Shown here piece by piece: positions 20,360 to 28,343 of a stretch of DNA of 64,000 bases. A model generated the notes under the pieces. It worked only from the letters and a program-made list of their open reading frames with translations. It did no database searches and was not told the origin of the DNA. The number at the start of each line of letters is the position of its first letter. Position 1 is the stretch's first letter. A program made the position numbers and the translations under genes. This DNA is from Vulgatibacter incomptus (GTDB lineage: Bacteria; Myxococcota; Myxococcia; Myxococcales; Vulgatibacteraceae). Location of the stretch: assembly GCF_001263175.1 (NCBI RefSeq), contig NZ_CP012332.1, positions 1,609,501 through 1,673,500 of the forward strand, in the 5' to 3' direction.

Positions 20360-21538
20360 ATGGAAAATTCGACCGCGTTCGGCGTCCCCTCGCCTGCTGA
20401 GAAAGACACGCTGGCCGGGATCCTGGCCCTGGCCTTCGCCTTTCCGGTGGAGGATTCGCGGGCCTGGCTGGATCGCGTGTTGATCGAGAACGTCCGGGTC
20501 CATCGGGAGGACGAGCGGGTCGCGGGCGGCCTCATCGCCTACCCCCTGGGCCAGTGGTTCGGCGGCCGGAGCGTGCCCATGGCCGGGATTGGAGGCGTGG
20601 GCGTCGAGCCCGCGGCCCAGGGCAAGGGCGTCGCCACCCGGATGATGCGGACGGCCATGCGGGAGCTCGCTGCCGAGGGCTACGCCCTCTCCTGCCTCTA
20701 TCCGGCGACGCAGCCGCTCTACCGGCGGGCCGGCTACGAGAGGGCGGGCTCGAACTTCGAGATCCGCGTCCCCGCCAACCTGCTCGCCCTCGGCGATCGC
20801 TCCCTGCCTCTTCGCCCCGCGACGCCCAAGGACCTGGAGGCGATCCGCGCCCTCCACCGTGAGCACGGCCGCGCGAGGCCGGGCTCGGTGGACCGTTCGC
20901 CGCAGCTCTGGCAGCGGATCCTGGATCCCTGGAGGACGCCGAAGCCGACCGGCTTCGTGGTCGAGCGCGACGGAGCCATCGACGGCTACTGCTTCTTCGC
21001 CCGTACCCACAAGCCCGAGGGTCGGCAGGCGCTCAAGGTCAACGACATGGTGGCCGCATCGCCCCAGGCCGCGACTCGCCTCCTCACCTTTCTCGGCGAT
21101 CACCAGAGCCTCGTCGACGACGTGAGCTGGTCTGGTGGCGACGCCGATCCCCTCCTCGCGCTCCTGCGCGAGCCGCGCCATTCGGTGGAGATCCGCGACG
21201 TGTGGATGCTCCGGATCCTGAACGTCGCCAAGGCGCTTTCGGCGCGGGGCTATCCGCGCGGGTTCTCCGCGTCGCTCGACCTCGAGATCTTCGACGAGGT
21301 GATCCCGACCAATCGCGGTCGCTTCGTCCTCGACGTGGCGGGGGGCGAAGCCCGGGTTCGCTCGGGCGGCGACGGGAGCCTGAAGATGCACGTGAGGGGT
21401 CTCGCCCCCCTCTACACCGGCTACCTCCCGGCTTCGAATCTGGCGCTCATCGGGCTGCTGGAGGGAGACGAGGCCGCGCAGGAGCTCGCCACGGCGCTCT
21501 TCGCCGGGCCGGCCCCCGCCATGAGCGACTTCTTCTAA
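20360..21538 (+). CDS. Eis-like GNAT N-acetyltransferase
   Basis: The product is 392 aa. The N-terminal GNAT domain contains the acetyl-CoA loop GVGVEPAAQGKGVATRMM (about residues 75-92), followed by LYPATQPLYRRAGYER. A second GNAT-like half follows (LRPATPKDLEAIRALHREHG). The C-terminal 110 residues (FSASLDLEIFDEVIPTNRGRFVLDV) form a sterol-carrier-like domain, and the protein ends with FF. This three-part layout and C-terminal aromatic residue match the Eis (enhanced intracellular survival) family, whose members acetylate amines including aminoglycosides. The natural substrate is unknown. Confidence 0.88.
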   Translation: MENSTAFGVPSPAEKDTLAGILALAFAFPVEDSRAWLDRVLIENVRVHREDERVAGGLIAYPLGQWFGGRSVPMAGIGGVGVEPAAQGKGVATRMMRTAMRELAAEGYALSCLYPATQPLYRRAGYERAGSNFEIRVPANLLALGDRSLPLRPATPKDLEAIRALHREHGRARPGSVDRSPQLWQRILDPWRTPKPTGFVVERDGAIDGYCFFARTHKPEGRQALKVNDMVAASPQAATRLLTFLGDHQSLVDDVSWSGGDADPLLALLREPRHSVEIRDVWMLRILNVAKALSARGYPRGFSASLDLEIFDEVIPTNRGRFVLDVAGGEARVRSGGDGSLKMHVRGLAPLYTGYLPASNLALIGLLEGDEAAQELATALFAGPAPAMSDFF

Positions 21539-21650: not shown

Positions 21651-21812
21651 ATGAACGGCTCCGACGCCCGTGAGGAAGGCTGCGAAGAGGTTCGCTGCCT
21701 CTGCGGAAACCTCCTCGCCCGCCTCGTCCCCGGTGGTGTCGAGCTGAAGTGCCGCCGTTGCAAGAGGAGCATCACCCTGCCCCTCCAGAGCGGTGGGGAG
21801 GACCTCCCCTGA
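21651..21812 (+). CDS. Com-like small zinc-ribbon protein
   Basis: The product is 53 aa, starting at ATG 21651 with a GGGAG ribosome-binding site. It carries CLCGNLLARL followed by ELKCRRCKRSI, a CxC and CxxC pair that would bind one zinc. This matches the Com family, named after the phage Mu translational regulator of mom. The protein is the first gene of the heme-uptake operon. Other bacteria often place the small activator HemP/HmuP at that place. A regulatory role is inferred from position and family only. It is 135 bp upstream of the TonB receptor gene. Confidence 0.82.
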   Translation: MNGSDAREEGCEEVRCLCGNLLARLVPGGVELKCRRCKRSITLPLQSGGEDLP

Positions 21813-21947
21813 CGAATCCGCCGCCCGACGGCGGATCGACACCCCTGCGGGAGCCGCGCTCCCGACCCGCCTAGCGGCCAGAGGCCCTCGCGCCCAGCGC
21901 CCGGTTCGAACGCATCCGACCGGAAGTTTCGCTGCCCCGAGGATCCC

Positions 21948-23882
21948 TTGTCCGCCCACGTCACGCGCCTCGCGCTCCTCAGCTCCTGCGCCCTGGCGCT
22001 CGTCCCCGCCGCCAGCCTCGCCGACGACGTCTCGGAGGTCGCCTCCGACGCTCCCGAGTTCGAGACGGTGATCACCGGCTCCCGCTCGGCGGTCTCGGTC
22101 GACGAGTCCCCCGTCGACACCCTCGTGATCACGCGGCGCGACATCGAGGCGTCCGGCGCCCGCGACGTGGCGGAGGCCCTCGCGAGCCAGCCCGGCGTCG
22201 AGCTCGTGCGCGACGGCGTCAGCGGCGTCGGCGTCCGCCTCCAGGGCCTCCAGCCGGAGCACGTGCTGATCCTGGTGGATGGCCAGCGGGTCCCCGGGCG
22301 GAGCCGGGGCGTCATCGACCTCTCGCGCTACGCAGCCGATCGCGTCGCGTGGATCGAGGTGGTGAAGGGCCCGACCTCGTCGCTCTACGGCTCGGACGCC
22401 ATGGGCGGCGTGGTGAACATCGTCACGAGGCGGGACCCGAGGCGCCCGGTCGAGGCGAGCCTCCAGGCACGGACGGACTCCCTCGGCGCCTACGAGCTCG
22501 ACGGGAGCGCGGCCGTCCGCAAGGGAGCTTCGAGCGCGCTCCGGCTCGCTGCCGGTCTTCGCCGAAGCAGCGCCTTCCGCCTCGTTCCCGAAAGCGTCTC
22601 CACCAGCGGCAGCTCACGAGACGAGCTCGACCTCGAGTTCCAGGGCGAGCAGGCCCTCGGCGAAGGTCTTCGCGTCTCGGGCAGCGCGTCCTGGCTCTCG
22701 ACCGATCGGGAGAGCGTGGACCTGGGCTCCGGGGGCGCCACCTTCGACCGCTACGATCGCACCCGGATCTACTCGTTCACGCTGGAGCCGAGGATCTCCC
22801 TCGGCGGCAGCGGTGCGCTCCTCCTCACCCTCCACCACTCGCGCCTCGACAACCAGCTCCTCCAGGATCAGCGCGGCTCGAACGCCCTGGATCAATACCA
22901 GCACAGCGTCGAGGGCCTCTGGCAGGGAGGCGTCCAGCACAACGTCCAGCTCGGCAGCCACCGCCTCACGTCCGGTGCCGAGCTCCTCTTCGAGGATCTC
23001 GAGTCGCCGAGGCTCGACGGCGGCAGGGGGGATCGCTTCCGCCCCGCCCTCTTCGTCCAGGACGACTGGGTCCTGTCGGGCGAGACCTCGCTGGCCCTGA
23101 CGCCCGGCCTCCGCCTCGACCACGACTCGCGCTTCTCCACCGCGCTCTCGCCCAAGATCTCCGCCCGCTACTCCCCGTTGGAGGAGCTCCAGCTCCGCGC
23201 GAGCTACGGCTGGGGCTTCCGGGCGCCCAGCTTCCAGGAGCTCCTGCTCCGCTTCGAGAACCCTTCTGCGGGCTACGTCGTCGAGGGCAACCCCGACCTC
23301 CAGCCCGAGACCTCGCGAGGAGGCAGCGTCGGCGCCTCCTACCGGGCCACCCGGTGGCTGGATCTCTCGGCGAGCGTCTTCCGCAACGACATCCGCCAGC
23401 TCATCACCAGCGGGACGATCGCCGAAGGCGCTCCTGGGCAGCCGGCCCGCTTCGGCTATCTCAATGTCGCCTCGGCGATCACGCAGGGAGTCGAGGCGGG
23501 CGCGACGGTCCGGCCATTGCGCGGCGTCTCCGTGACGGCCGGATACCAATTGCTGGACGCGCGGGATCTCTCCTCGGATCGGCTGCTGGAGGGCCGCGCC
23601 CGCCACAACGTCACGCTCGCCGCCTCGTGGATCGAGCGGCAGTCGGGGCTCTCCGCGAGCGCCCGCGGGGAGTGGGTGGGTGAGAGGCCCTTCTACTCCC
23701 TGGAGGACGGATCGAGCCGAGTGGCCGAGTCGCATGTCTTCGCGAGCGCCCGCGTCGCCAAGGAGCTGGGCGGCGGCTTCACCGCCTTCGTCGGGGCCGA
23801 GAACCTCTTCGACGCCGGCGATCCCGAGGACTTCGCAATTCCCCCGCGCTCGATCTTCGCGGGGGCCTCCGTCCGCTACTGA
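21948..23882 (+). CDS. TonB-dependent heme/hemophore receptor (HmuR-like)
   Basis: The product is 644 aa, starting at TTG 21948 after a GAGGA site, with a Sec signal ending near SLADD. The plug domain (about residues 40-165) contains RDVAEALASQPGVELV, LILVDGQRVPG and VEVVKGPTSSLYGSDAMGGVVNIVTR. The rest is a 22-strand barrel type with C-terminal FAGASVRY. The heme-receptor FRAP motif (GWGFRAPSF) and an NPDL motif (EGNPDLQPE, in the place of NPNL) are present. No His lies between them, although classical heme receptors have one there. The following hmuY-to-hmuV genes support heme as cargo. Confidence 0.92.
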   Translation: MSAHVTRLALLSSCALALVPAASLADDVSEVASDAPEFETVITGSRSAVSVDESPVDTLVITRRDIEASGARDVAEALASQPGVELVRDGVSGVGVRLQGLQPEHVLILVDGQRVPGRSRGVIDLSRYAADRVAWIEVVKGPTSSLYGSDAMGGVVNIVTRRDPRRPVEASLQARTDSLGAYELDGSAAVRKGASSALRLAAGLRRSSAFRLVPESVSTSGSSRDELDLEFQGEQALGEGLRVSGSASWLSTDRESVDLGSGGATFDRYDRTRIYSFTLEPRISLGGSGALLLTLHHSRLDNQLLQDQRGSNALDQYQHSVEGLWQGGVQHNVQLGSHRLTSGAELLFEDLESPRLDGGRGDRFRPALFVQDDWVLSGETSLALTPGLRLDHDSRFSTALSPKISARYSPLEELQLRASYGWGFRAPSFQELLLRFENPSAGYVVEGNPDLQPETSRGGSVGASYRATRWLDLSASVFRNDIRQLITSGTIAEGAPGQPARFGYLNVASAITQGVEAGATVRPLRGVSVTAGYQLLDARDLSSDRLLEGRARHNVTLAASWIERQSGLSASARGEWVGERPFYSLEDGSSRVAESHVFASARVAKELGGGFTAFVGAENLFDAGDPEDFAIPPRSIFAGASVRY

Positions 23883-23929: not shown

Positions 23930-24502
23930 ATGAAACGATTCCTTTTCGTAGCCATCGCCAGCCTCGCCTTCGCCGCCTGCGGCGACGATCTCAGGGACGA
24001 TCACCCTTCCATCGACGACCCTGGCGAGAACGAGACCGGCCTGGTGGATGTGCAGGAGGAGGCCGGCGGCAGTTTCCTCGTCCGGGTGGACGCGACCTCC
24101 GAGACGGACTGGGTCTTCCTCGACATCGAGTCGAGAAAGGAAGCAGATCAGGCGGGTCCATGGCACCTGGCCTTCCGCCGCCAGAACGTGGTTGCCAACG
24201 GTCCGGCCGGCGTGGGCGTGGCGTGGGCCGCAGGCAGCGATCCCTCGGCCACGGAGGTGCCGCCGCCCTCCTCCTTCCGCTTCGACGGGCCGCTCGACCA
24301 GCCTGCCGCGGAGGGCGCCTTCCAGAGCGACGACGCCTGGTACGCCTACGACCCTGTCACCCACACGCTCACTCCCAGGAGCCGCGTCTATTACGTCTAC
24401 ACCCCGAGTCATCACGTCTACGCGCTGGTCTTCCAGCGCTACTACGACGCCGCCGGGACCTCGGGCTTCCCCACCTTCCGCCTCACCCCCGTGAACCACT
24501 GA
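23930..24502 (+). CDS. HmuY-like heme-binding lipoprotein
   Basis: The product is 190 aa. The signal ends with lipobox AFAAC (Cys 17), so it is lipid-anchored. The family hallmark DLAFRR-N appears as WHLAFRRQNVVANGPAGVGVAW at about residues 85-106. The C-terminal half has several Tyr and His (YYVYTPSHHVYALVFQRYYD) that could ligate heme; which ones do so cannot be read from one sequence. HmuY proteins are hemophore-like lipoproteins that pass heme to an HmuR-type receptor, matching its place between the receptor and hmuS genes. It is 47 bp after the receptor gene. Confidence 0.85.
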   Translation: MKRFLFVAIASLAFAACGDDLRDDHPSIDDPGENETGLVDVQEEAGGSFLVRVDATSETDWVFLDIESRKEADQAGPWHLAFRRQNVVANGPAGVGVAWAAGSDPSATEVPPPSSFRFDGPLDQPAAEGAFQSDDAWYAYDPVTHTLTPRSRVYYVYTPSHHVYALVFQRYYDAAGTSGFPTFRLTPVNH

Positions 24503-24515
24503 AACGAGAAGAGAC

Positions 24516-25541
24516 ATGAACGAAATCGAGATCAGGCAGCAGCTCGAGGCGATCCGCGCCGCCGAGCCGGGCATCCGGGCCCGCGACGCCGCCCTGCGGC
24601 TCGGGATCAGCGAGGGCGAGCTCGTGTCCTCCACGCCCGGCAACACCCGGCTCCGGCCCGACTTCGCGTCGATCCTGGGCGAGCTTCCCGCGCTGGGTGA
24701 GGTCCTCGCCATCACCCGCAACGAGGCTGCCGTCCACGAGAAGCGGGGGATCTACCCGGCACCCGAGCCCGAGGAGGGATCGATCCTCGTCCACTCACGC
24801 GACATCGACCTGCGCGTCTTCCTCCACGGCTGGGCCAGCGCCTTCGCCGTTCGGGACGAGGCCCGGGGGAAGCCGCGGCACAGCCTCCAGTTCTTCGATG
24901 GCGCCGGAGACGCGGTGCACAAGATCTGGCTGGAGGAATCGAGCGATCTCGCCGCGTTCGAGCGCCTGGTGGAGCGGTTCGCGTCACCTGCCGAGCGCCT
25001 CGAGGTGCGGCCCATCGAGGCCCGCCCTAATCGCCCGGACGAAGAGATCGACGCGGCGGGGCTCCGGGCGGCGTGGGAGGCCCTGACCGACACCCACGAG
25101 TTCTTCGGGATGCTGAAACGCTTCGGTGCAGGGCGCCTGCAGGCGTTGCGGCTCGTCGGCGGCGGCCTCGCCCAGCGCGTGCCGAACGCGATCACGTCCG
25201 CGCTCCTCCACCACGTAGCGGCCAAGGAGGTCCCGATCATGGTCTTCGTCGGGAGCCGTGGCGTGATCCAGATCCATAGCGGTCCGGTGCGCCGGGTGGC
25301 AGCGAAGGGCGGTTGGCTCAACGTCCTCGACCACGGGTTCAACCTGCACCTGCGCGAGGACCTCGTGGCGGAGAGCTGGATCGTCCGCAAGCCGACCGCG
25401 GACGGATTCGTGACCTCCCTGGAGCTCTTCGACGCCAAGGGGGAGGTGATCGCCCTCTTCTTCGGCGAGCGAAAGCCCGGGATTCCCGAGGCGGAGAGCT
25501 GGAGACAGGCGCTGGCTCACGTCGAGAGGAGCGTCTCGTGA
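24516..25541 (+). CDS. hmuS: Hemin-degrading/heme-trafficking protein HmuS (ChuS/HemS family)
   Basis: The product is 341 aa with the two-repeat layout of HemS/ChuS. The N-terminal unit runs RAADAALRLGISEGELVSS-like (here RARDAALRLGISEGELVSS) into LGELPALGEVLAITRNEAAVHEKRGIY. The C-terminal unit is VFVGSRGVIQIHSGPVRRV and NVLDHGFNLHLREDLVAESWIVRKPT. The family binds heme in the cytoplasm and either degrades or hands it on. The HmuT start overlaps its stop as GTGA, showing tight coupling within the heme operon. Confidence 0.92.
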   Translation: MNEIEIRQQLEAIRAAEPGIRARDAALRLGISEGELVSSTPGNTRLRPDFASILGELPALGEVLAITRNEAAVHEKRGIYPAPEPEEGSILVHSRDIDLRVFLHGWASAFAVRDEARGKPRHSLQFFDGAGDAVHKIWLEESSDLAAFERLVERFASPAERLEVRPIEARPNRPDEEIDAAGLRAAWEALTDTHEFFGMLKRFGAGRLQALRLVGGGLAQRVPNAITSALLHHVAAKEVPIMVFVGSRGVIQIHSGPVRRVAAKGGWLNVLDHGFNLHLREDLVAESWIVRKPTADGFVTSLELFDAKGEVIALFFGERKPGIPEAESWRQALAHVERSVS

Positions 25542-26386
25542 TCGCGGGCTTCCTCTTGATCGCGCTCGCGGCCTCGAGCCCTGCGTCGGCTGCCGATCCA
25601 GCGCAGGCGCGGATCGTCACCCTCGGCGGCCCCGTGACCGAGGCGGTCTTCGCGCTGGCGGCCGGCTCGCGCGTGGTCGGCGTCGACGACTCGAGCCAGG
25701 CGGTGGAGGGCGCGGCGGCCCTGCCGAAGGTCGGCTACTACCGCACCGTCGGCGCCGAGGGGATCCTCTCGCTGCGGCCCACGCTGGTGATCGCCACCGA
25801 AGAGGCCGGTCCGAAGGCGGCCCTCGATCAGCTCCGCAGCGCCGGAGTCCCCGTGCTGCTGCTGCCCGCCGAGGCCACGGTGGAGGGCGCGAAGCGAAGG
25901 ATCCGCGCCGTCGCCGAGGCGCTGGATCTCCGTGCGGAGGGGGCCGCCCTCCTCGCCCGCATGGACGTCGATCTGGCCGAGGCCGCCTCGCAGATCGGGT
26001 CCTCGTCCGACCACCCCAAGGTGCTCTTCCTCTTCGCACCGGGGCAGAACGCGCTCTCGGCCTCGGGGCGCGGCACCGCCGCCGACGAGATGATCCGCCT
26101 GGCCGGGGCGACCAACGCAATCGACGGCTACCAGGGCTACAAGCCGCTCTCCGCCGAGGCGGCGATCGCCGCGCAGCCCATGGTGATCTTGGTCACGACC
26201 TCCACGCTCGCGAGGCTGGGCGGAAAGCCAGGAGTCCTCGCGCTGCCCGGCCTCTCCGCTACACCAGCCGGACGCGCCGGGCGCGTGGTGGCCCTGGAGG
26301 ATCTCTTCCTCCTCGGCTTCGGTCCCCGAACCGGCGCCGCGGTGAAGGCCCTGGCGGAGCAGCTTCGCGGGGCCGACGTCCAGTGA
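25538..26386 (+). CDS. hmuT: Heme ABC transporter periplasmic binding protein HmuT
   Basis: The product is 282 aa. GTG 25538 overlaps the hmuS TGA by four bases and follows GAGAGGAG. A short Sec signal (IAGFLLIALAASSPASA) precedes a class III periplasmic binding fold. Characteristic segments are RIVTLGGPVTEAVFALAAGSRVVGVD, LRPTLVIATEEAGP and AADEMIRLAGATNAIDGYQGYKPLSAEAA. It delivers heme to HmuU. The next gene again overlaps by GTGA. Confidence 0.93.
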   Translation: MIAGFLLIALAASSPASAADPAQARIVTLGGPVTEAVFALAAGSRVVGVDDSSQAVEGAAALPKVGYYRTVGAEGILSLRPTLVIATEEAGPKAALDQLRSAGVPVLLLPAEATVEGAKRRIRAVAEALDLRAEGAALLARMDVDLAEAASQIGSSSDHPKVLFLFAPGQNALSASGRGTAADEMIRLAGATNAIDGYQGYKPLSAEAAIAAQPMVILVTTSTLARLGGKPGVLALPGLSATPAGRAGRVVALEDLFLLGFGPRTGAAVKALAEQLRGADVQ

Positions 26387-27522
26387 AGGCGCCGGCTGCC
26401 CTCGGCTCTCGGAGCGTGCCTGCCGACCCCGGCGGGCACGCTCCACCGAATCCCATCCGGCCGATCGAGACCCGGCGCATCCGCCGGGCACGTCTTATAG
26501 TGCTCGGCCTCGCCTTCGGGCTCGCCGCGGTCTCGATCGTGGCGGCGGGGATCGGAGCTGTGTCGATCCCGCCCGGCGAGCTCGTCGAGATCCTCGGCCA
26601 ACGCCTCGGCCTCGCGGACCCAGCCGCGATCGATCCCGGCCGAGCCGCGATCCTCTTCGCGGTCCGGCTGCCCCGGGTGGTCCTCGGAACCCTCGTCGGC
26701 GCCGCGATAGGCCTCTGCGGCGTGCTCCTCCAGGGCCTCTTCCGCAACCCGCTGGCGGATCCGGGGCTCCTCGGGATCTCCGGCGGCGCGGCCCTCGCAG
26801 CCGCGACGGCCACCGTCTTCGGGGACTCGCTCGGCAGCGCCTTCGGCATCTCGCTCGGCGGCGCGTCCCAGCCTGCCGTCGCCTTCCTGGGGGCGCTCGC
26901 CACCACGTGGATCGTCCGCCGCGTCGCCCTCGCCGGCGGCCGCACCGATGTTTCCACCCTGCTTCTCGCAGGCGTCGCCCTCGCCTCCCTCGCCGGGGCG
27001 GGAACCGGTCTCCTCAGCCACCTCGCCACGGAGAGCCAGCTTCGCAGCATCACCGCCTGGAGCCTGGGCAGCCTCGGCGGCGCGACCTGGCAGACGGCTG
27101 CGTGGGTCGCCGTGCCGGTGATCCTGCTCCTCGCGAGCGCCCCGCGCCTCTACCGTCCCCTCGACGCCCTCCTCCTGGGCGAGCGCGAGGCCGGGCACCT
27201 GGGCATCGAGGTGGAGTCCCTCAAGGCCCGGATCGTGATCCTCGCGTCCCTGGCGGCGGGCGCCGCCGTCGCCTCCTCGGGGATCATCGGCTTCGTCGGC
27301 CTCGTGGTGCCCCACCTGCTTCGGCAAGTCATCGGCCCGGGGCATCGCTTCCTCCTCCCGGCCTCCGCCCTGGGCGGCGCGATCCTCCTCCTCTGCGCCG
27401 ACCTGGTCGCACGAACCGCGGTGGCACCCGCCGAGCTCCCGATCGGCGTGCTCACCTCCGCCATCGGCGCGCCCTTCTTCCTCTTCCTCCTCGTCCGCAA
27501 CAAGCGACGACACGCGGAGTGA
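26383..27522 (+). CDS. hmuU: Heme ABC transporter permease HmuU (FecCD family)
   Basis: The product is 379 aa with about nine to ten membrane segments. FecCD signatures are RLPRVVLGTLVGAAIGLCGVLLQGLFRNPLADPGLLGISGGAALAA and, near the end, GIIGFVGLVVPHLLRQVIGPGHRFLLPASALGGA. GTG 26383 overlaps the hmuT stop. The N-terminal 35 residues are hydrophilic and longer than usual. It pairs with HmuV to bring heme across the inner membrane. Confidence 0.93.
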   Translation: MKAPAALGSRSVPADPGGHAPPNPIRPIETRRIRRARLIVLGLAFGLAAVSIVAAGIGAVSIPPGELVEILGQRLGLADPAAIDPGRAAILFAVRLPRVVLGTLVGAAIGLCGVLLQGLFRNPLADPGLLGISGGAALAAATATVFGDSLGSAFGISLGGASQPAVAFLGALATTWIVRRVALAGGRTDVSTLLLAGVALASLAGAGTGLLSHLATESQLRSITAWSLGSLGGATWQTAAWVAVPVILLLASAPRLYRPLDALLLGEREAGHLGIEVESLKARIVILASLAAGAAVASSGIIGFVGLVVPHLLRQVIGPGHRFLLPASALGGAILLLCADLVARTAVAPAELPIGVLTSAIGAPFFLFLLVRNKRRHAE

Positions 27523-27527
27523 GCTCC

Positions 27528-28327
27528 ATGCTGAACGCCTCGTCCCTCACCGTCACCAGGGGATCACGGACGATCCTCGACTCGATCGACCTCGAGGTCC
27601 GCCCCGGCGAGCTCCTCGCCCTCCTGGGCCCGAACGGCGCCGGCAAGTCGACCCTCCTCTCCGTCCTCGCCGGCGAGCGGGAGCCGCTGCGGGGCAGCTT
27701 GGGCCTCGAGGGCCGTGAGCTCCGCTCGATCCCCGTGGCCGAGCGGTCCCGGACCCTCGCCCTGCTCCCGCAGGAGAGCCGGATGGACTTCGCCTTCACC
27801 GCGTTCGAGGTCGTCCTCCTCGGCCGAACCCCACACGCCTTCGCGCGCGGCGCGATCGCGGATCAGACCATCGCCCGAGCTGCTCTCCGCCGCACCGGGA
27901 CCTCCCACCTCGCCGAGCGGTTCTTCCCCACCCTCTCCGGCGGTGAGCGGCAGCGGGTCCAGCTCGCCCGGGTCCTGGCCCAGCTCTGGGACGCGCCTCC
28001 GGCGGGCGCGCGCTATCTCTTCCTGGACGAGCCGGTCTCGAGCCTCGACCCCGCCCACCAGCACGCCACCCTCGATCTCGCGCGCCGGCTCTCCCGCGAA
28101 GGCATCGCGGTGGTCGCGGTGCTCCACGACCTGAACCTCGCCGCCCAATACGCGGATCGGGTCGCGCTCCTGCATCGCGGAAGGCTGGACGGCGCCGGTC
28201 CGCCGGCGGACGTCCTCACAGAAGCCTCGATCGAACGGGCCTATGGCCTGCGGACGCGGGTGCTCGTCCACCCCGAGCTCGGCTGCCCCTGGGTGCTGCC
28301 CCTCGGCGAACCTTCCGCGATCCCGGC

Positions 28328-28343
<16 letters not shown>
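27528..28343 (+). CDS. hmuV: Heme ABC transporter ATP-binding protein HmuV
   Basis: The product is 271 aa. ATG 27528 has GGAG nine bases upstream; a GTG at 27519 is possible. The Walker A is GPNGAGKST (about residue 38), the signature [18 protein letters not shown], the Walker [13 protein letters not shown] and the switch His in [13 protein letters not shown]. The ATPase energises HmuU. Its last 16 bases overlap, in antisense, the 3' end of the enoyl-CoA hydratase gene. It is the last gene of the heme operon. Confidence 0.93.

Follow-up and report, generated by a model that had tools for sequence, protein, structure and literature searches.

What does a 53-aa protein with two cysteine pairs do at the head of a heme-uptake operon in Vulgatibacter incomptus, and on which nucleic acid might it act? 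A preliminary description of the locus had named the protein a Com-type zinc ribbon, placed its gene at the HemP position of the operon, and suggested an unrecognized heme or iron regulator acting on DNA or mRNA. We analyzed the locus within a window, i.e. the whole stretch of 64,000 nucleotides, from a host genome represented by a single 4.35-Mb contig (Table 1). The claimed ORF exists, its translation was confirmed, and it contains both the C-x-C and the C-x-x-C pair; start codons assigned to small ORFs are guesses. Pfam assignments agree that it precedes the genes for a TonB receptor, HmuY, HemS, and HmuTUV, and thus heads a heme-uptake operon. The HemP domain (PF10636) matched neither the 53-aa protein nor anything in the whole genome, with a positive E. 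coli control, and the HemP position is indeed filled by the Com-like gene.

Table 1. Features of the heme-uptake locus, with positions counted from the first nucleotide of the window
Feature	Position	Strand	Remarks
Inverted repeat TTGAAGTTGA-N9-TCAACTTCAA	21588..21616	.	candidate operator upstream of the Com-like gene
Com-like zinc ribbon	21651..21812	+	53 aa, CxC...CxxC; translation MNGSDAREEGCEEVRCLCGNLLARLVPGGVELKCRRCKRSITLPLQSGGEDLP
Conserved RNA hairpin GGC-CAGA-GGC-CCUCGC-GCC-CAGC-GCC	21876..21901	+	26 nt; candidate target of the Com-like protein, no binding data
Second predicted hairpin CCGGTTCGA-ACGCA-TCCGACCGG	21901..21923	+	after the conserved hairpin; prediction only
GAGGA, likely ribosome-binding site of the TonB receptor gene	21939..21943	+	aligns with GGAGGAC-N-ATG of Myxococcaceae leaders
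TonB-dependent receptor (Plug + beta-barrel)	21948..23882	+	Pfam; TTG start
HmuY-family lipoprotein	23930..24502	+	Pfam PF14064, E 2e-8
HemS/ChuX heme-handling protein	24516..25541	+	Pfam PF05171 and PF06228
Heme ABC transporter periplasmic binding protein (HmuT-like)	25532..26386	+	Pfam PF01497
FecCD-type permease (HmuU-like)	26383..27522	+	Pfam PF01032
ABC ATPase (HmuV-like)	27516..28343	+	Pfam PF00005

The gene upstream of the Com-like gene (20360-21538, same strand) encodes an Eis-like GNAT acetyltransferase with an SCP2 domain. In phage Mu, the target of Com is Mom, which likewise resembles acetyltransferases. This resemblance looks coincidental, since the fetched heme loci of relatives show no such neighbor.

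Comparison of the window with 52 homologues over a 25-codon core revealed differences at 15%, 9%, and 57% of the first, second, and third codon positions, respectively, i.e. third positions vary four times more than first and six times more than second ones. Judged by this excess, the Com-like ORF is under purifying selection at the protein level; the cysteines and basic residues are invariant among its relatives. By hhalign, a profile of 14 relatives matched 8 phage Com proteins with a probability of 95.8% (E 7.5e-9), whereas 40 shuffles that kept the cysteine columns reached at most 14%. On the strength of this profile comparison, we consider that the protein is homologous to phage Com. Curated models do not recognize it: searches of Pfam and NCBIfam gave zero matches for the 53-aa protein, which does not pass the cut-off of PF10122 (Zn_ribbon_Com), and its matches to the PHROG Com families were weak (E 0.013 and 0.03). 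PF10122 matched only 2 of the 14 relatives, with a best E of 0.055, and retrieved nothing from 60 related genomes; this branch escapes the curated model. The four cysteines are kept, whereas the first zinc knuckle reads C-x-C in the aligned relatives and C-x-x-C in phage Com. The label "Com-type" thus stands by profile comparison but not by curated models, and we use the name "Com-like" because the protein is homologous to Com, yet does not reach the curated cut-off and has no CxxC in its first knuckle.

The AlphaFold structure prediction for the 53-aa protein has a core pLDDT of about 90, three strands, and a pTM of 0.48. The model has no significant match in PDB, the top weak one being the zinc ribbon of aIF2-beta; it neither proves nor disproves a zinc ribbon and only fails to contradict one. 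Searches of phages and plasmids with the 53-aa protein found no relatives, and a recent prophage origin of the gene is unsupported. No description of the Com-like gene, or of the hairpin element discussed below, was found in the open-access literature.

A profile search identified strong Com-like members in 59 of the 195 Myxococcota genomes. The gene is present in 44 of the 48 genomes that carry a close HemS; of the four that lack it, G109 and G110 still have a complete heme operon. The fetched loci of Myxococcaceae share one gene order (Com-like, TonB receptor, HmuY, HemS, HmuT, HmuU, and HmuV), the exceptions being L053, a degenerate copy, and L088 and L089, which do not lie in heme operons; all fetched Myxococcaceae heme loci begin with the Com-like gene, save in two genomes that have neither the gene nor the RNA element. 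A lack of association with TonB or heme loci had been set in advance as grounds for refutation; this comparison was run, and the association holds. The Myxococcus heme operon (L037 and L106) contains three tandem HmuY-like genes. The degenerate ORF (L053:8639-8839, genome G050) has no Fur box, hairpin, or heme operon nearby and is apparently a relic left by operon loss.

Outside Myxococcaceae, the Com-like gene precedes other outer-membrane or unknown genes and adjoins iron genes. Its neighbors include (i) an OprB porin, (ii) OMP-like genes with FeoA/FeoB (L049 and L085), (iii) DtxR-FeoA and FeoB (L087), (iv) ExbB (L044), and (v) a Fur-family gene that lies immediately 5' in four loci (L049, L050, L086, and L088) and nearby in L085. 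For some proteins without a Pfam match, the label "OMP" was assigned from a signal-peptide-like start and from reading of the sequence. In the Anaeromyxobacter family, Com-like genes can stand alone with their own Fur-box-like site (L046-L048). Given the Feo, Fur, ExbB, and porin neighbors, the role seems to concern iron in general more than heme alone; that the protein is a regulator remains an inference.

Several proteins were observed in these neighborhoods. A family of predicted secreted proteins with the motif EDNSFL-EEAYNQE is encoded after the Com-like gene in several iron loci (L085:8072-9034; L049:8963-9829 and L052:1408-2232, both on the minus strand); Pfam recognizes neither the L049 nor the L052 protein, and the family is a candidate for a new iron-related outer-membrane family. 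In two other loci (L180:2225-3022 and L166), an unannotated OMP-like protein with the motif PE-VAEALFL-D-LPPG is encoded immediately 5' of FeoA-FeoB. A DtxR-type iron repressor with a FeoA domain (L087:4527-5270) is encoded upstream of FeoB and the Com-like gene.

Candidate operators were scored by their identities to the 19-bp E. coli Fur box, the highest-scoring position being taken at each locus; dinucleotide shuffles almost never reach a score of 13 or more. Fur-box-like sites with at least 13 of 19 matches were found upstream of the Com-like gene in 47 of the 58 distinct loci. The window has, in the place of this site, a perfect inverted repeat with 10-bp arms that matches the E. coli Fur box poorly (9/19 only) and has the same inner TTGA-N9-TCAA frame as the Fur-type sites of the relatives. 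From its position and this frame, it is inferred to be a putative Fur site. The repeat is unique in the host genome at 0 mismatches. One further copy at 3 mismatches (L216, G000:C1:2791111-2791139), located near a gene resembling an ECF sigma factor, may mark another site bound by the same regulator. The homology to phage Com, the purifying selection, the association with iron and TonB genes, and the Fur-box-like sites of the relatives are direct results of sequence comparison.

Between the Com-like gene and the next gene lies a newly found element, a short RNA hairpin first spotted by side-by-side comparison of Com-like-to-receptor gaps. Its fold consists of GGC, CNGM (where M is A or C), a 3-bp inner stem closing the loop C(C)NNGA, and then CNGM and GCC on the 3' side. 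No Rfam 15 family matches it at the gathering score. A model of the element, of which the window is itself a row, matches positions 21868-21909 with an E of 7.8e-8. When pairing was required, the hairpin was found at most 150 nt after the Com-like gene in 50 of the 58 distinct loci; base shuffles predict 3.6. A second search, with fixed flanks and a free inner stem, found the inner stem paired in 47/47 sites, in four versions: GGC/GCC, GGU/ACC, GGA/UCC, and GAC/GUC. Changes on both sides were observed at two inner pairs (28 rows) and never in slid controls. Pair counts outside Myxococcaceae rest on few lineages; the covariation is therefore convincing in kind and modest in number. RNAalifold recovered the element, and little else, from the Myxococcaceae leaders. 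A single consensus fold for the whole Myxococcaceae leader was rejected, as MAFFT misaligns the region 3' of the element. Weak model matches elsewhere were treated as chance because the loci fetched for many of them (L157-L165, L167-L168, L179, L181, L187, L213, and L214) fall within coding sequence or have neither a Fur-box-like site nor an iron gene.

The gene and the hairpin occur almost exclusively together. Among the 195 genomes, 55 have both, 4 the gene alone, 1 the hairpin alone, and 135 neither (Fisher p 1.6e-42); this p value is only descriptive, since the species do not count as independent samples and sites of this kind went into building the model. The heme operons without a Com-like gene (G109 and G110) also lack a hairpin before the receptor. 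In a 297-genome sample of a second phylum, six genomes have the Com-like gene; the best hairpin match in this phylum falls within one of the six (G252), and another of them (G195) has two hairpin copies. In L176 and L175 the hairpin again follows the Com-like gene, the L175 copy being seen by eye only. The matches in two second-phylum genomes without the gene (G431 and G368) look like chance. No hairpin was recognized near the Com-like genes of L050, L053, and L043, or near the stand-alone genes L046-L048. In two genomes of the Anaeromyxobacter family (L180 and L166), a Fur-box-like site, the hairpin, an OMP-like gene, FeoA, and FeoB follow each other in this order, and the Com-like gene with its own Fur-box-like site is found elsewhere. 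Because the gene and the hairpin-bearing OMP-FeoA-FeoB operon lie apart in the same genomes, this arrangement argues for a Com-like protein that may act in trans. At both of these sites, the third, innermost inner pair is an A-G mismatch.

A possible output step was suggested by four lineages, in which the hairpin overlaps an intrinsic terminator (L044, with two copies, L085, L086, and L089). The terminators have stems of 15-18 bp followed by T-runs, and the terminator stem begins with the 3' strand of the hairpin (AGAGCCC or variants). The two folds are mutually exclusive and the bare hairpin is far weaker; thus, a protein holding the hairpin would prevent termination. The BglG/LicT antiterminators work on the RAT hairpin, which is weak, about 30 nt long, and excludes an overlapping intrinsic terminator. 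The arrangement described here is similar in that a weak hairpin competes with an overlapping terminator for the 5' arm of the latter and would need a protein to win, whereas it differs in the absence of CAT/PRD domains, in the signal, which is iron status instead of the sugar PTS, and in the restriction of the overlap to four lineages. No overlapping terminator was found in the window leader or in the folded Myxococcaceae leaders, where the next hairpin is not followed by a T-run; this holds also for the second predicted hairpin of the window. Exposure of the ribosome-binding site, as for Mu mom, was dropped: forcing the hairpin in 38 leaders raised the accessibility of this site in 9 and lowered it in 16, i.e. 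gave no exposure, so that folding lends no support to a Mu-type translational output in the window. The near one-to-one co-occurrence of gene and hairpin, the compensatory changes, and the terminator overlap in four lineages are observed in genomic data alone.

Com of phage Mu, the closest characterized relative, is an RNA-binding zinc-finger protein; it turns on translation of mom, the neighboring gene (PMC6483171). SELEX with the H. sputorum Com domain selected 5'-CC(N)2-3GAG-3' in a hairpin loop, the GA dinucleotide being crucial, and the mom RNA duplex has internal GA steps within tandem A-C/G-U pairs (PMC6483171). Most hairpin loops of Myxococcaceae read CC-N2/3-GAG, and the internal loop offers further GA or GC steps; the window loop, CCUCGC, is off consensus and has GC in place of the expected GA. 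Of the two nucleic acids originally considered, DNA or mRNA, the latter is thus favored by a covarying hairpin that lies in the transcribed leader and whose loop corresponds to the Com-selected motif (PMC6483171). The features shared with phage Mu Com are the homologous four-cysteine module, the size of about 60 aa, the position of the gene directly 5' of its presumed target, and the RNA hairpin with the CC(N)2-3GAG loop (PMC6483171). Unlike phage Com, the Com-like proteins have a CxC first knuckle instead of CxxC and fall below Pfam detection; they belong to a host chromosome and an iron regulon rather than to phage DNA modification; the associated hairpin contains an additional symmetric internal loop (CNGM/CNGM); terminator overlap is seen in several lineages; and no ribosome-binding-site exposure is predicted.

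Two further systems are comparable in gene arrangement. In Pseudomonas, Com-like genes assigned to PF10122, with an unexplored role, precede llpA bacteriocin and levansucrase genes (PMC6240691). These are also host-encoded Com relatives located immediately before unrelated target genes, but that report describes neither an iron link nor an RNA element (PMC6240691). In the E. meliloti and C. violaceum models, HmuP/ChuP acts on a conserved 5'UTR element of the TonB receptor gene, and ChuP also acts in trans (PMC9131926). As in the HemP/HmuP/ChuP-HPRE system, a small (here presumed) regulator heads a heme operon, which is Fur-controlled there and putatively so here, and a conserved 5'UTR element precedes the receptor. 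This likeness is functional and is not kinship: HemP belongs to an unrelated family (PF10636, no match here) without a zinc ribbon, and the HPRE sequence as quoted in PMC9131926 does not show the Com-like hairpin.

These observations bear on several other roles for the Com-like protein. A DNA-binding transcription factor acting at the operon promoter, or together with Fur, would be in keeping with the ability of small zinc ribbons to bind DNA and with the conserved palindromes of the upstream region. However, the upstream palindrome of the relatives is of the standard Fur-box type and is explained by Fur, whereas the element that accompanies the gene is located 3' of it, within the transcribed leader, and its compensatory changes and terminator overlap fit RNA; we regard such a factor as unlikely. 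Even with RNA as the target, the gene-hairpin evidence is silent on the sign of regulation. The protein might be a repressor or an autoregulator working via the hairpin, e.g. switching uptake off at sufficient iron or heme, with a zinc site that responds to redox state or metal, and a weak bare hairpin facing a strong terminator could mean a fine-tuning device. On the other hand, the Fur-box-like sites predict the highest expression of the Com-like gene in low iron, when uptake is wanted, and both the closest characterized relative, Mu Com (PMC6483171), and the positional analogue, HmuP/ChuP (PMC9131926), are activators; repression seems equally improbable.

A small metal or heme chaperone or sensor, with the hairpin being read by a ribosomal, Rho-, or RNase-related process, would suit the many kinds of iron genes to which the Com-like gene is tied, as well as the binding of heme by the positional analogue ChuP (PMC9131926). 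But the gene and the hairpin are gained and lost jointly across genomes, the protein is homologous to an RNA-binding family, and the hairpin loop matches the Com-selected motif, so we rate this role as very unlikely. Finally, the ORF lies directly 5' of a hairpin and a terminator, like the leaders of classic attenuation, and could chiefly serve as a leader peptide: its translation would decide what the attenuator does, and the protein as such would have no task. Strong protein-level selection with invariant cysteines and basic residues speaks against this, as does the separation of gene and hairpin in the Anaeromyxobacter family, and we give a mere leader peptide almost no credence.

We consider it reasonably probable that a Com-like RNA binder, derepressed from Fur, activates outer-membrane iron/heme uptake via the leader hairpin, both binding and activation being inferred. 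According to this proposal, Fur would leave its site in low iron and the Com-like protein would be produced. The protein would then bind the nascent leader hairpin of the next gene or, alternatively, act in trans on the leader hairpin of the OMP-feoAB operon, and transcription would proceed into the genes for the receptor or OMP. In lineages with an overlapping terminator, the protein-bound hairpin would be an antiterminator; in the window and in Myxococcaceae, where such an overlap was not detected, the output may be Rho-dependent termination, translation, or mRNA stability. The Com-like protein and Fur would together form a feed-forward loop. For the broader proposal, that host Com-like proteins are widely used RNA antiterminators or translational activators of genes for outer-membrane iron uptake, working in cis and in trans via one common hairpin motif as a second, post-initiation layer below Fur in a control system not described before, we see the chances as evenly balanced.

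If the proposed mechanism is true, the Com fold would gain a role outside phages with a concrete RNA target, which would hint at why com-like genes precede unrelated genes in other bacteria, and myxobacteria would have an independent solution to the problem handled by HmuP/HPRE in proteobacteria. The near-constant pairing of the Com-like gene and the hairpin suggests an overlooked RNA-based switch for iron uptake in many soil bacteria. For myxobacterial iron uptake, it adds a candidate RNA regulator, the short hairpin of which may be used to find further genomic targets.
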